Shown: positions 2 through 5,734 of the stretch, in pieces
Position numbering within the stretch: position 1 is the first letter of the stretch
Layout of the letters: every line of letters starts with the position of its first letter
Origin: a virus
IMG/VR virus record: IMGVR_UViG_3300042566_001051
Span: 1 to 64,000 of that record
Direction: 5' to 3' (one strand)
Length of the DNA stretch: 64,000 nt
Translations under genes and position numbers: made by a program
The notes under the pieces: generated by a model
Databases searched by the model: none
What the model was told of the DNA's origin: nothing
What the model saw: only the letters and a program-made list of their open reading frames with translations

Positions 2-2569
2 TTACACCTTTGCGAGGCGGCCGCCGATGCCCGAGCCCGAGTGCGACGCGGCGTTGGCGACGTCGAGAAAGAACAGGCCGGCGATCGCGCCGTAGCCCCA
101 ACCGCCGCCGTGGTAGGCAACGCACGATGCGCCACTGTAGAAAATGTCAGGGAATGTCGCGCTGGCGGCAGATGCGTTCGTCGTCTCCGGCGTGAATACC
201 GTACCAAGGTCGTAATCCGTTCCGGTGGTTGTCGCCATCGTTACCGGATACGTGCCGCTTGTTGGGGCGGTCAGCGAGCTCGTCTTGTAGGTCTTGTTGC
301 CGTTCTTGTCCCACACCATGAACTTGGAACTGGCGTCAGTTTGCAGGCCGTCGACCATCTGCCAGACGTTGCCCCAGAGGCCAACGATGCCGCGCCAGGT
401 GGCTTGCGCCACGGTAGCGTTATCGACGGCCAGCGCGGACGAGCCGGACACATGGCCTTGGCCGACCAGCGTCTGGCTATCGGAGCCGCCAATTTCGATC
501 AGCGCCAGGGTTTGGATCGCCGAAAGCTGGTAGATATTCCACAGGCCAAAGCCGGTGACGCCGCCGGTGTTGCGGTTGTTGGCGCGGGTCTGCATGGTCG
601 GGAAGTCGATGGAGACCAAAGGCGTATTTCCAGCGACGGAGCCGAGCTTGGTGCCGCCGTCGTTCGTGCCTTGGTACTTGCCCACCCAGAACTGGTCGAT
701 CTGCGCGCCGGCATTCATGAAGGCCGGATGCACGCTGAAGCCGGAGACGGGCTGGTCGGAAACCATCCAGTAGCGCTTGCCGGCATAGGTGCCAGACGGG
801 ACGGTGCCGGTCTTCAGGTAATACTTCGGCACCTTCATCATGGCCTGGCCGTCGATGGTCTGCGCAACCACGCCGGCATAGGTCGGGTGGTTGTTGAAGG
901 TCGCGGCCGTGGTCGTGATTGCGTTGAAATTCTCGTCGATGCGCTGCCAGGTGCCCGCGCCGCCGCCGGTGGCCGTGCAGACGATGCCGATGATCTGGGC
1001 GAACTGCTGCTTGGTTGTGAAGGCGATGTCGGACGACCACTCGGATGCGCCCAGACTGGTGCCGGTGTGGCGGACGCGCATCACGTACTGGGTCTGACCT
1101 GCAACCAGGACGCCGGCGGGAACCGTGTAGCTGGTCTTGGCCGTGGTGCTGGCGCCGGAATCGTGCAGCGGTGCCGCCCAGGAGCCGGACGCAAGTCGAA
1201 TCTGCCACTGGCTGGATGCGTGCGTGTCGGTGCCGCCGGTCGTGGCAAAGGCGGAGGATTGCAGCGTCGGCTGTTCCGGGATTTCGGTCTGGCCGTTGGT
1301 CGGCGTGGTGACGGTCGGCGTATTGACGTAGGCGTAGGTCGCCTTGGTCGTGAAGCTGGTGATCGTCGCCCAGTCGGACACAAGGCCGGCAACGTCCTTG
1401 ACGCGAGCGCGGACGTAGAAGGTGGTATTGACGGCAAGCACGCCGGCCGGAACCGAGTAGGTCATAGCCGACTTTTCGCCGGAGTCGTGCAGGACGCTGG
1501 CAAAGGTGCTGCTGGTGCTGATCTGGAACTGCGCCGTGGCGAAGGCATTGCCGGCCGGGCTGACGTAGTTCGAAGCGGTCAGCGTCGGCGTCTCGATGAC
1601 GTTGGTCGCGCCGGTGGCCGGGCTGCTGATCGTGGGCGCGTTCGGGCGCATGAGCGGATTGACGTAGCCGCCCTGCTCAGTACCGCCGCCGAGAGCGACG
1701 ATGTGCTTGATAACCATCGGCTCGCCATCGACCACCATGCGCAGATAGCCATCGCCGCGCATGGGCACGACGTATTCGTAGTCGGCGAAGCCTTCCGGCA
1801 CGCCGCTGGTGCCGCCGCCGGAACGACGAACCGACCAGGCGCGCTCAGTCCATGCCGTGGTGTAGGCGTCGCGGAAATACAGGCGGGCCTCACCGGCATT
1901 CAGGCTTCGGCGAATGACGACGGCGCGGGACGTGTTGTTGTCACCCAGGTTGAGAGCGCGAGACACCCACTGGCCGCCGATGGCGCCATCGACGCCGCCT
2001 TCGGGCCGTGCAACGAGCGTGGAGCCGGTCAGCTTGGCGCCGGCGCCCCAGTTGCGGGACAGGTTGGCCGCCAGGCGCAGGCGAGTACCGGAGTGAATCG
2101 CGGTGATCCGCACCAGGGCGGTATCGGTCGCATCGGACAGAAGGTAGTCTTCGCCGACTTTCACGCCGCTGGTATCGGCGATGTCCAGGGAGTCGTCGCC
2201 CATGATGCCGCTGGTGACGGAAACGCCCAGGTGGTTTTGCAGGTTGTAGCCGGCCGCGAAAAGCTCGAAGGCGATGCGGCGATTGCGGTACAGCCAGTCC
2301 AGGGTGACGGCATTCTGTACCGACGTGGGCGATGCCAGGCCGTTCAGGGTGCCGGAAATGCCGCCGATCTGGGTAACGATGGCGTTGATCGTCTCGGACA
2401 GGTTCGGCTTTCCGGCGCGGGCGGCCTCGATTTCGGATTCGATGGCCTCGGCGCGGTTGTCCAGGTTATCGAAATTCTCGTCGATTTCCTGGTAGCGCAC
2501 GTTCCAAAGGGACGGAACGGCATCCGGTTCATTGTTCGGGATGGGGGTGATACTGGGGTTAGGCAACAT
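2..2569 (-). CDS. Tail fibre / receptor-binding protein with C-type-lectin-like C-terminus
   Basis: This 855-aa protein is probably the distal tail fibre that binds the host. A short N-terminal coiled region (residues about 25-60) is followed by beta-rich sequence. Two tandem fibronectin-III/Ig-like repeats follow (about 310-415 and 419-520), each starting with a PT-P-T motif and ending SFTTK or AFTTK. The last 320 residues resemble the formylglycine-generating-enzyme / C-type-lectin fold (FWVGKYQGT, WRGIVGLWGNVWQ) and end in GGGW...AGLFF...NAAS...GGRLAKV. That ending is typical of the variable domain of retroelement-diversified proteins. The start has a good AAGGAG site 6 nt upstream. The stop codon is at bases 4-2, so whatever lies downstream is outside the window. 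Confidence 0.75.
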   Translation of the reverse strand: MLPNPSITPIPNNEPDAVPSLWNVRYQEIDENFDNLDNRAEAIESEIEAARAGKPNLSETINAIVTQIGGISGTLNGLASPTSVQNAVTLDWLYRNRRIAFELFAAGYNLQNHLGVSVTSGIMGDDSLDIADTSGVKVGEDYLLSDATDTALVRITAIHSGTRLRLAANLSRNWGAGAKLTGSTLVARPEGGVDGAIGGQWVSRALNLGDNNTSRAVVIRRSLNAGEARLYFRDAYTTAWTERAWSVRRSGGGTSGVPEGFADYEYVVPMRGDGYLRMVVDGEPMVIKHIVALGGGTEQGGYVNPLMRPNAPTISSPATGATNVIETPTLTASNYVSPAGNAFATAQFQISTSSTFASVLHDSGEKSAMTYSVPAGVLAVNTTFYVRARVKDVAGLVSDWATITSFTTKATYAYVNTPTVTTPTNGQTEIPEQPTLQSSAFATTGGTDTHASSQWQIRLASGSWAAPLHDSGASTTAKTSYTVPAGVLVAGQTQYVMRVRHTGTSLGASEWSSDIAFTTKQQFAQIIGIVCTATGGGAGTWQRIDENFNAITTTAATFNNHPTYAGVVAQTIDGQAMMKVPKYYLKTGTVPSGTYAGKRYWMVSDQPVSGFSVHPAFMNAGAQIDQFWVGKYQGTNDGGTKLGSVAGNTPLVSIDFPTMQTRANNRNTGGVTGFGLWNIYQLSAIQTLALIEIGGSDSQTLVGQGHVSGSSALAVDNATVAQATWRGIVGLWGNVWQMVDGLQTDASSKFMVWDKNGNKTYKTSSLTAPTSGTYPVTMATTTGTDYDLGTVFTPETTNASAASATFPDIFYSGASCVAYHGGGWGYGAIAGLFFLDVANAASHSGSGIGGRLAKV

Positions 2570-2968: not shown

Positions 2969-4228
2969 CTACTCCTTGATGATTTCGAACTCGAAAGCCG
3001 GGTTTCTGGGGCCGCCGAGCTTCCATTGACCGGAAAGAGTCAGCCGGGCAGGCTTCGGTGGCAACATGACGGCAGGCTTGTGATCGTGGATTCTGAACTC
3101 GCCAAAACGCGGATAAACGGTCATTTTCCGGCTACGGAGCCGGCGCCCGTCTAGGCTGAAATGCCCGATCTGATAGGCGCCGCCGACCGTCCATGTGCCA
3201 TCAAGGCGGCGAATGCGCTCAAAAAGCGTCGTTGGCGGGTCAGGAATGAAATACTCTGGCTCAGGATCGGCGGGGATCGTTTCGACTCGCCACACCAGCG
3301 TATCGCCGGTTATTTCAACGTCAGCAAGGCCACTCGCCCGGCAACTCTTCAGGCGCCAATCGACCTTTCCGCCCTCCAGCTTCCCGAGCTTGAACGTGCC
3401 GAAATGACTTGGGAGGCGCGCCGGCTCGCCGTCGATACCCAACTTCCATCGGCCATCGTTCGCCTCGGTGATAACCCGACCGCACCACGGGTAGCGAATC
3501 GGTATGGTCTTGTCCATCGCCAGCGCGTAGCCCATCGAAACGGATATGCCAAAGGCAATGCGCAGCCAGAACCGGAACACGGGAAGCAGGCGCGCCGGGA
3601 TGACCGAGCGGATGATGTGGATCAGGCTGGCAATCGAGCGAGTATTGACGCTGAAATCCAGCGAAATAAGGATTCGACTGGTCAGGAACATCCCGGCGGT
3701 ATTCACCTTGCGGTTGGCCCGGCTTTCATCGGCGCCGACAATGCGCCGTCCAAGCCCCCAGGAGCCGTCCAGCTTCACGCCATCCTCGCCGACTTGATGC
3801 AGCCACCACGCGAAGCTTGGTTTCGTGGTGTAGAGCGCCGTCGGGTACGGGCTTTCCTTGTCGTGCCAAAGCTGTTCCACCTCGCATTCGTTGGGGAACA
3901 GCATTTGCAGGTAGGTGCGCAGGAAATGCAGGCCACGCCCCTGAACGTCGCCAGACTTCCAGGCCCGGTACAGGTAACGCGTTGCCGCCTCTTCACGGTC
4001 GCCTTGCAGTAGCACCAGACCGTCGGTATTGACCGCCTTGCGCACCAGATCAAGGGAGCCAAGATGCGCAGCACCAAGGACGTTCGCGTCGAACGAGTCT
4101 CCCGCAAGGTTGGCCCCGAACAGATCGAGGAATAGCTTCTTCAGGTCGGCCTCAACCTCGTTTTCGGCAAAGCTGCCTTCGAGGGGGCTTAGTCGCGGAA
4201 GTTGGGCGTTTTGGAAGTCAAGAGACAT
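2969..4228 (-). CDS. Baseplate/tail protein, P2 gpI-like
   Basis: The 419-aa product is a likely baseplate wedge component. Its first 200 residues resemble tail protein I (MSLDFQNAQLPRL start; LFLDLFGANL; ATRYLYRAW) and it directly follows a gpJ-like gene, as in P2. The C-terminal half has WKLG / WTVGG / WKLGG motifs recurring at intervals (about residues 265, 345 and 405), which suggest repeated beta-modules that may contact a fibre. It is longer than P2 gpI (about 176 aa), the extra length being that C-terminal part. A gap of 9 nt separates it from the upstream J gene, so the two are probably co-translated. Confidence 0.6.
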   Translation of the reverse strand: MSLDFQNAQLPRLSPLEGSFAENEVEADLKKLFLDLFGANLAGDSFDANVLGAAHLGSLDLVRKAVNTDGLVLLQGDREEAATRYLYRAWKSGDVQGRGLHFLRTYLQMLFPNECEVEQLWHDKESPYPTALYTTKPSFAWWLHQVGEDGVKLDGSWGLGRRIVGADESRANRKVNTAGMFLTSRILISLDFSVNTRSIASLIHIIRSVIPARLLPVFRFWLRIAFGISVSMGYALAMDKTIPIRYPWCGRVITEANDGRWKLGIDGEPARLPSHFGTFKLGKLEGGKVDWRLKSCRASGLADVEITGDTLVWRVETIPADPEPEYFIPDPPTTLFERIRRLDGTWTVGGAYQIGHFSLDGRRLRSRKMTVYPRFGEFRIHDHKPAVMLPPKPARLTLSGQWKLGGPRNPAFEFEIIKE

Positions 4229-4237
4229 GGCGGCCCA

Positions 4238-5734
4238 CTACCCGCCCCAGGACGGCGTGACGATATTGACCGTCTCGACGGTAACTGAGAGGCTTTCGGT
4301 GGCGACGTAGCGCCACATTTCAGGCCGGGCCGCCAGCGCTTCAGGTTCCAGGATATTGACGGTCAGGTCAGACTCTCCGCCGGAGAGCGCCGCAACCTTT
4401 TCGCGCAGCAGCGCATAAACTCGCTGATAGAGCGGGCGATTGCGGCCGCGCCGTGATGCTGCCGCCGTCTCGCCAAACTCCGACAAGATGGCCTCGATGA
4501 TTTTCTGGCGCACGTCGGAAGCAACGTATGAGGTTGCCACCCTGGCGCTGATGGTCATGGCGATCTTCGAGCGCACCGGGGTAAAGAAGCGCACCTTATA
4601 GCTGTCGTCGGCGGCCAGGATGGCGGCCTTTATTTCGCGCTGGGTGTCGGTGAGCGATTCGTTGGCGATCACCGCCGGCGGAACCGGTACAGCCGGGTCT
4701 TCTTCGGTCAGGATGCTTTCTTCGCCAGTGCTCGATAGGCAGGCGACGAATAGGGTATTGATGTTATCGAAGCTGGGGCCTCGCGCCCGTTCTTCAGCCG
4801 ATTCATTCCAGACCGACAAGAAGCGCAGCGTCGGAAAGTTCCTGCGCACCAAGAAATCGAACTCGCCCAGGAATACCGCATTGCCGTCATAGACAGACGG
4901 GTAGCGCGCCAGGTCTCGCAGCACCGACATGGGCGGCGGATTCTGACCAGGCAGCAGCATGGCATCCATCTTCATTTCGATGGCCGCCTCCAGCGGAGAG
5001 ACAAGGTACTCGAACGAAAACGGGCTGCCAAACGCCGGGCTTATGTCGCCGGCGGTATAGAACACGGCCAAGGTAATGGCGGCGCCGTCTCGTGGTTGCA
5101 CGCCGACCACGCCATCAAAGCCGAAGCGGACATAGACGCGCTGGCGGTCATCGGCCTCGATGTGGAATACCCGGTCATCCGGGAAGGTGTTGACGTAGCG
5201 GTCGCGGTAGGAGAGCTCTCCATCGCCATCGCTCACGGAAACGCCGCACAGGTAGGAATCGTCTTCGGATGGCGGTATTTCAATGGCGTAGAACGGCTCG
5301 CTACCGCTGACGGTGTGGCGAACGACCAGCGAGCGCAGTTGCACCGCCTCGAATGTCGCCTCTCCATCTGCCGGCACGCTGGCCGGTGTCTCAATCCTGT
5401 AGGAAAGCCCGGATGAATCAAGGATCGTTCTCCCTGATTCGATAACAAAGACCTCTCCGCCCTTATTTGCAGCTCGAATCCGCACCCTTGCCGGAGTCGC
5501 CTTGCGAACGATTCCGCGCATTGCAGCATCGGCCAGAACGGTAGCGTCCCGCGTTTTCTCGAACGGCTCAGACATGGCCGTTTCAAGCTGGGCGGAGAAC
5601 ATCGCCAGCATGGTTGCCATTGCATCAAGATGCTGTAACACGCGCGGGTCTCCGGCCTGGTACAGCGGAGCAATGGCCGGGTAGGATGAAATCGAATCGC
5701 GGATTGCCCGCTGAAAATCTGCCTTGGTCAGCAT
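4238..5734 (-). CDS. Baseplate J-family protein
   Basis: The 498-aa protein matches the baseplate J family (P2 gpJ / T4 gp6 relatives), which forms the baseplate wedge ring. Family features include the long N-terminal helical part (residues 1-80, LADAAMRGIVRKATPARVRI) and the beta-rich middle. The C-terminal part carries VRFFTPVRSKIAMTISARVA and VRQKIIEAILSEFGE. It lies between a small baseplate-type gene (1 nt gap) and the gpI-like gene, which is the standard order for contractile-tail phages. Confidence 0.75.
   Translation of the reverse strand: MLTKADFQRAIRDSISSYPAIAPLYQAGDPRVLQHLDAMATMLAMFSAQLETAMSEPFEKTRDATVLADAAMRGIVRKATPARVRIRAANKGGEVFVIESGRTILDSSGLSYRIETPASVPADGEATFEAVQLRSLVVRHTVSGSEPFYAIEIPPSEDDSYLCGVSVSDGDGELSYRDRYVNTFPDDRVFHIEADDRQRVYVRFGFDGVVGVQPRDGAAITLAVFYTAGDISPAFGSPFSFEYLVSPLEAAIEMKMDAMLLPGQNPPPMSVLRDLARYPSVYDGNAVFLGEFDFLVRRNFPTLRFLSVWNESAEERARGPSFDNINTLFVACLSSTGEESILTEEDPAVPVPPAVIANESLTDTQREIKAAILAADDSYKVRFFTPVRSKIAMTISARVATSYVASDVRQKIIEAILSEFGETAAASRRGRNRPLYQRVYALLREKVAALSGGESDLTVNILEPEALAARPEMWRYVATESLSVTVETVNIVTPSWGG

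Follow-up and report, generated by a model that had tools for sequence, protein, structure and literature searches.

A phage diversity-generating retroelement with one template repeat and two target genes, one in the tail module and one outside it

Results

A tail protein gene runs to the edge of the analysed window

The window analysed here is the whole 64,000-nucleotide stretch formed by bases 1-64000 of the record IMGVR_UViG_3300042566_001051 (G000:C1), which is 75,125 bases long. The rest of the record, 11,125 bases, forms segment L002, and record coordinates are those of L002 plus 64000. The first gene of the window (2-2569, minus strand; target 1) encodes an 855-aa protein matching the tail protein family PHROG 5302 (E 5e-33). 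It comprises an N-terminal helix, beta domains, two Ig/FN3-like domains (approximately residues 310-520) and a C-terminal C-type-lectin domain that ends in a variable region (VR). The protein terminates in VAYHGGGWGYGAIAGLFFLDVANAASHSGSGIGGRLAKV, and its stop codon lies at bases 2-4, so that a single base separates it from the window end, in agreement with the initial annotation. Upstream lie a tail-collar-like gene (2585-2965), a 419-aa gene (2969-4228) and a baseplate gene (4238-5734), all on the minus strand, which places target 1 in the tail module.

Since the tail gene is on the minus strand and runs to base 2, its downstream neighbours were expected to the left of base 1. Window bases 1-163 are repeated at record 74963-75125 (minus strand) with three differences, and the relative L110 (IMGVR_UViG_3300044731_002498) can be aligned through the join without a break, at 94% identity across 5.3 kb. 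To the left of window base 1 the sequence therefore resumes at record base 74962 and runs downwards from there. The record is thus either circular or terminally overlapping, with the assembler's cut falling at the variable region.

The retroelement cassette lies across the contig seam

Reading across the seam on the minus strand, we found the tail gene with its VR (VR1), its stop codon, a non-coding stretch containing a hairpin, a 193-aa gene, a 106-aa gene, avd, a template repeat (TR), a reverse transcriptase (RT) gene and an integrase gene. The initial annotation had proposed, from the protein C-terminus, a diversity-generating retroelement (DGR) just outside the window, and had suggested looking 3 kb leftward for a near-copy differing mainly at adenines, an Avd gene and an RT. 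All three are there: avd, TR and RT lie within 3 kb to the left of base 1, and the RT starts approximately 1.6 kb past VR1. The avd gene (record 73634-73984, minus strand) encodes a protein that matches bAvd and PHROG 3206 and scores above the equivalog cut-off of NCBIfam NF033474. The RT gene (record 72285-73337, minus strand) matches PF00078 (E 1e-21; 72516-73124) and PHROG 1423 (E 1e-124), and both frames are intact. The RT carries the motifs VGALTSQ and YMDD; group II-type RTs have QGxxxSP where DGR-type RTs have a VGALTSQ-like SQ motif. Among solved structures, the window-phage RT is closest to 8ub7 (E 4e-49), an entry titled simply 'Reverse transcriptase' that we take to be the BPP-1 RT.

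Beyond the RT lies the integrase gene (record 70601-71833, minus strand). The gap between the two (record 71834-72284) contains several copies of a GATGGTAT-like motif, which may be arm sites for the integrase close to attP. A tRNA that could have placed attP was not found near the integrase.

TR and VRs differ only at template adenines

The TR (record 73497-73599, minus strand) is a near-copy of two regions. VR1 at the window end (9-111, or 112 with a one-base extension; minus strand) falls inside the stretch 2-130 that had been flagged as a DGR variable region, and shares 85%-87% identity with the TR over 103 bases. Only 26 of the 103 TR positions are adenines, and all 15 differences between the TR and this VR1 fall on them (15/15; hypergeometric p = 1.9e-11). 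The VR1 copy at the right end of the record (74971-75073, minus strand) gives 13/13 (p 9.7e-10). The same TR also matches VR2 (record 66430-66532, plus strand), which forms the 3' end of a second gene, again with 13/13 mismatches at template adenines (p 9.7e-10). Read in the VR1 frame, the TR encodes WLSNGGNWSNGANAGLFYLNVNNAASNSNTNIGGRLAND; the codons replaced at the variable positions are therefore mostly Asn (AAC), as the initial annotation had expected. In almost every relative, too, a TR/VR pair with adenine-only differences lies a short way upstream of the RT.

The three differences between the repeated contig ends correspond to TR positions 9, 10 and 15, all of which are A in the TR. By our own arithmetic, three random differences in the 163-nt overlap would all fall on the 26 template adenines with a chance of approximately 0.004. 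The two contig ends are most simply read as two alleles of one VR.

A stand-alone paralogue of the lectin domain carries VR2

The second target gene (target 2; record 65556-66539, plus strand) starts with an ATG at 65556 after AAGGAG and encodes a protein of 327 aa, whose homology is to the final third of target 1. Tail domains are absent from it, and no signal peptide was apparent by eye. The gene lies between ssb and dut, approximately 7 kb from the TR and on the opposite strand. The two proteins are ~51% identical in the lectin domain, and the paralogues are ~64% identical over their alignment. Pfam and NCBIfam gave no lectin call for either target, and the full-length structure model of target 1 was poor over the C-terminal lectin domain; we therefore read the fold from target 2. 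The target 2 model (mean pLDDT 86, below 50 over part of the VR) has a C-type-lectin fold, with TaqVP (Z 24.6; rmsd 2.7 over 248 residues, 25% identity) closest, followed by TvpA (Z 13.4) and Mtd (Z 11.8). This paralogous model bears out the lectin/FGE-like fold that had been suggested for the domain preceding the VR of the tail protein. In the phage collection, target 2 had distant matches only (25%-33% identity), and VR1 DNA had no match.

Between ssb and target 2, a terminator-like hairpin followed by a T run (GGCCCCACCTGGGGCC ATTTTTT) occupies record 65512-65527 (L002:1512-1527, plus strand). It is kept in L052 and absent from L053 and L055, and terminator-like sites in this interval are no more frequent than in shuffles; the hairpin may limit target 2 expression. 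Downstream of dut, a gene for a C-5 cytosine DNA methylase (record 67890-69809, plus strand) possibly serves evasion of host restriction.

A conserved hairpin follows each VR

Past VR1, from record 74962 downwards, we found the hairpin GGCCCGC-CGA-GCGGGCC, with a 7-bp GC stem, starting 33 nt past the stop codon and ~40 nt after TR/VR identity ends. The stretch after VR1, hairpin included, recurs almost exactly after VR2. The three-base loop is CGA or CAA (CRA), and the stem is kept by compensatory changes: among 20 distinct sequences 91% of pairs form, and both sides have changed in four of the seven pairs. The covariation score was 0.235 against 0.057 for shuffled sequences, although the set was picked by loop and pairing and the chance-like L095 (two pairs) was left out, which favours pairing somewhat. 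None of 500 shuffles reached 0.235, and all slid versions scored lower.

Homing in BPP-1 requires a hairpin at the corresponding position, and the GC-rich 7-10 bp hairpins reported for phage DGRs have a 4-nt GRNA loop and sit 4-34 bp from the VR (PMC3240598). The hairpin of the window phage differs in its three-base loop and in a slightly greater distance from the VR; loops of 4 nt occur in more distant relatives, and two of these are GRNA (GATA in L072 and GGGA in L073). By analogy, we presume that the hairpin is a retrohoming recognition element.

VRs are diversified between close relatives

We compared the VRs of close relatives, which differ on near-identical scaffolds. Among six close relatives, codons that read N, Y, S or T in the TR carried 3.7 distinct residues each, versus 1.1 for other VR codons and 1.3 for the remainder of the protein. 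When the window phage was compared with L110, target 1 had a dN/dS of 0.076 before the VR, versus 19 non-synonymous to 1 synonymous change within it. Target 2, compared with L052, showed a dN/dS of 0.033 outside the VR and a ratio of 16:0 inside it. TR position 36 is A in L110 and C in the window phage, and the L110 VR1 differs from the window-phage VR1 exactly there, as expected if adenines set the variable sites. A near-copy and an RT thus both lie within 5 kb of a fibre that is not invariant, the opposite of what the initial annotation had named as evidence against a DGR. Judging from the two assembled alleles and the differences between relatives, the RT and Avd are probably active.

A stand-alone second target recurs outside the tail module of relatives

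We looked for second targets in eight records with a related RT that exceed 60 kb or are whole genomes (G004, G006, G011, G013-G017). A stand-alone second target was present in seven of them, all but G011. Its neighbours vary: ssb in G004 and in a further relative, G019; a YqaJ exonuclease and a dATP/dGTP pyrophosphohydrolase in G017; a YqaJ-like gene in G006 that matches that of G017 by sequence; Mu-like transposase genes in G013; and, by eye, an integrase-like gene in G014. None of these neighbourhoods is a tail module; the remote target is kept in early, recombination or integration regions, and the orientation relative to target 1 varies as well. G019 also has two adjacent RTs.

The prophage of Gulbenkiania mobilis DSM 18507 (L016/G013) has an RT 91% identical to that of the window phage, the same order of VR target, two genes, avd and RT, and a distant second target, with 8/10 VR2/TR core mismatches at A. 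It differs in that its second target is on the same strand as its target 1, near Mu-like transposase genes (L145:9105-14286, just downstream of transposase A and B). That this prophage shares its tail and DGR region with the integrase-bearing window phage suggests module exchange around a kept second target.

Tandem DGRs with two RTs per cassette were found in Burkholderia sp. LMG 13014, Pigmentiphaga sp. NML080357 and Pseudothauera nasutitermitis (L018, L019 and L020). The RTs are 45% and 73% identical to the window RT, and each has its own TR; one TR serves the nearby target and the other serves a stand-alone second target on another contig. Mismatches of the second target to the TR upstream of the second RT fall at A in 12/12, 8/9 and 13/14 cases, respectively; the TR found first was rejected as its template, with 45-59 mismatches. 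We considered diversification in trans across chromosomes, and do not claim it because the contig geometry fits one split prophage in two of the three genomes: in G017 the target lies ~48 kb from the end of C1 and the DGR ~12 kb from the start of C2, and in G016 the target lies ~47 kb from the start of C2 and the DGR ~13 kb from the start of C7.

Discussion

The locus combines a DGR-type RT, a nearby TR with a 3'-end VR, adenine-only differences, Avd and, from the target 2 model, a C-type-lectin target. It is almost certainly a DGR of a temperate tailed phage related to Betaproteobacteria prophages, with one TR and two target genes. Following what has been worked out for BPP-1, the TR region would be transcribed, and the RT with Avd would copy the transcript into cDNA, misreading adenines. 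The cDNA would then replace the VR at the 3' end of each target gene, with the GC-matched 3' end and, past the stop codon, the hairpin directing its placement, while the TR itself would stay intact. By analogy with Mtd, target 1 is most likely the varying receptor-binding tip of the tail; homology suggests that the varied surface binds a host receptor. Reading the protein C-terminus from raw sequence thus correctly foretold a retroelement beyond the window; the second target, the downstream hairpin and the two VR1 alleles lay outside what that reading could see.

Could the locus hold an ordinary duplicated lectin domain, the TR being a tandem piece of the tail gene that has decayed, and the RT coming from a group II intron, a retron or a defence element? 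The RT does score against group II maturase and Drt models of NCBIfam, each time falling far short of the cut-off, but decay would not confine every TR/VR difference to adenines here and likewise in the relatives; with an Avd above its equivalog cut-off, an RT bearing the DGR-type SQ motif and TR/VR pairs of the same kind upstream of the RT in nearly all relatives, we give this explanation almost no weight. A DGR that diversified its VRs earlier and has since fallen inactive, leaving them fixed, is a less extreme proposal, and the homing signals are indeed deduced from identity only. Against it stand the two VR1 alleles in one assembly that differ only at template adenines, the intact RT and avd, and the different VRs on near-identical scaffolds, which together make it improbable.

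The alleles themselves could be challenged if the seam mismatches came from two tail genes forming a tandem target, for assemblers may collapse or misjoin repeats, and circularity is not provable from one record. Yet both ends agree completely in the 52 bases upstream of the VR, a stretch that retrohoming would leave uncopied, while the paralogue target 2 is far more diverged, and L110 has a single gene across the join; we consider two tail genes about as improbable as an inactive DGR. More room is left for the idea that target 2 is a non-functional or parasitic copy, for instance a recombination reservoir for the tail VR. It resembles the tail domain at about half of its residues, has no tail-anchoring domains, carries the same kind of VR and hairpin, and is preceded by the terminator-like site, even if such sites are no commoner there than in shuffles. 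This nevertheless seems unlikely, given the strongly constrained scaffold, the intact frames in relatives and the re-diversified VR2 of target 2.

Active one-template, two-target diversification remains the preferred reading. As a conserved and diversified lectin protein outside the tail, target 2 would best be explained as a second binding protein. Addition to virions and action as a soluble receptor blocker appear about equally likely. More tentatively, and with somewhat less than even confidence, we propose a conserved dual-use DGR in several phage backbones, in which one template varies both the tail tip and a stand-alone, early-region binding domain whose protein is not part of the virion. 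Target 2 could then act as a sensor, for instance, or as a variable decoy or receptor blocker that is produced in lysogens or set free at lysis. Why a temperate phage keeps diversifying a copy of its receptor-binding domain outside the tail gene is the question that this arrangement raises.

DGRs are common in phages. The window-phage system shares with that of Bordetella phage BPP-1 (mtd-avd-TR-brt) the strand, the order of VR gene, avd, TR and RT, the adenine specificity, the GC-rich hairpin past the VR stop codon (PMC3240598) and a tail-borne C-type-lectin target of the Mtd kind. Unlike BPP-1, it has two targets per TR, a CRA rather than a GRNA loop, and two additional small genes separating VR1 from avd. 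The Thermus aquaticus prophage protein TaqVP (5VF4; PMC6328139) offers the closest solved fold and is, like target 2, a free-standing C-type-lectin protein, whereas the window phage has the same domain both free-standing and at the end of a long tail protein. Phages nd4 and nd12, with their tentaclins, likewise have one TR and two C-type-lectin targets per phage; there, both targets lie in the cassette and are unrelated in sequence, and the tentaclin VR is near the 5' end (PMC10743442). The targets of the window phage, in contrast, are paralogous with 3'-end VRs, and the second lies ~7 kb off on the opposite strand.

More broadly, 28.6% of the DGRs in one catalogue are of the multi-VR type (PMC6642488), and remote targets acting in trans have been proposed in bacteria (PMC10907252). 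With phage DGRs, multiple VRs and two-target cases all known, the unusual part is the conserved non-tail second target. This arrangement did not come up in our literature searches, though it may have been described; the window contig or its relatives may already be present in the IMG-based catalogue of PMC8144416.

The two-target DGR of the window phage is complete, and several bacterial strains with sequenced genomes, including G. mobilis DSM 18507, harbour close relatives of it. Another relative, the 37,667-bp record IMGVR_UViG_3300002026_000203 (L054/L116), breaks off within target 1 on one side and within target 2 on the opposite side, which would fit an assembly failure close to each of the variable genes.
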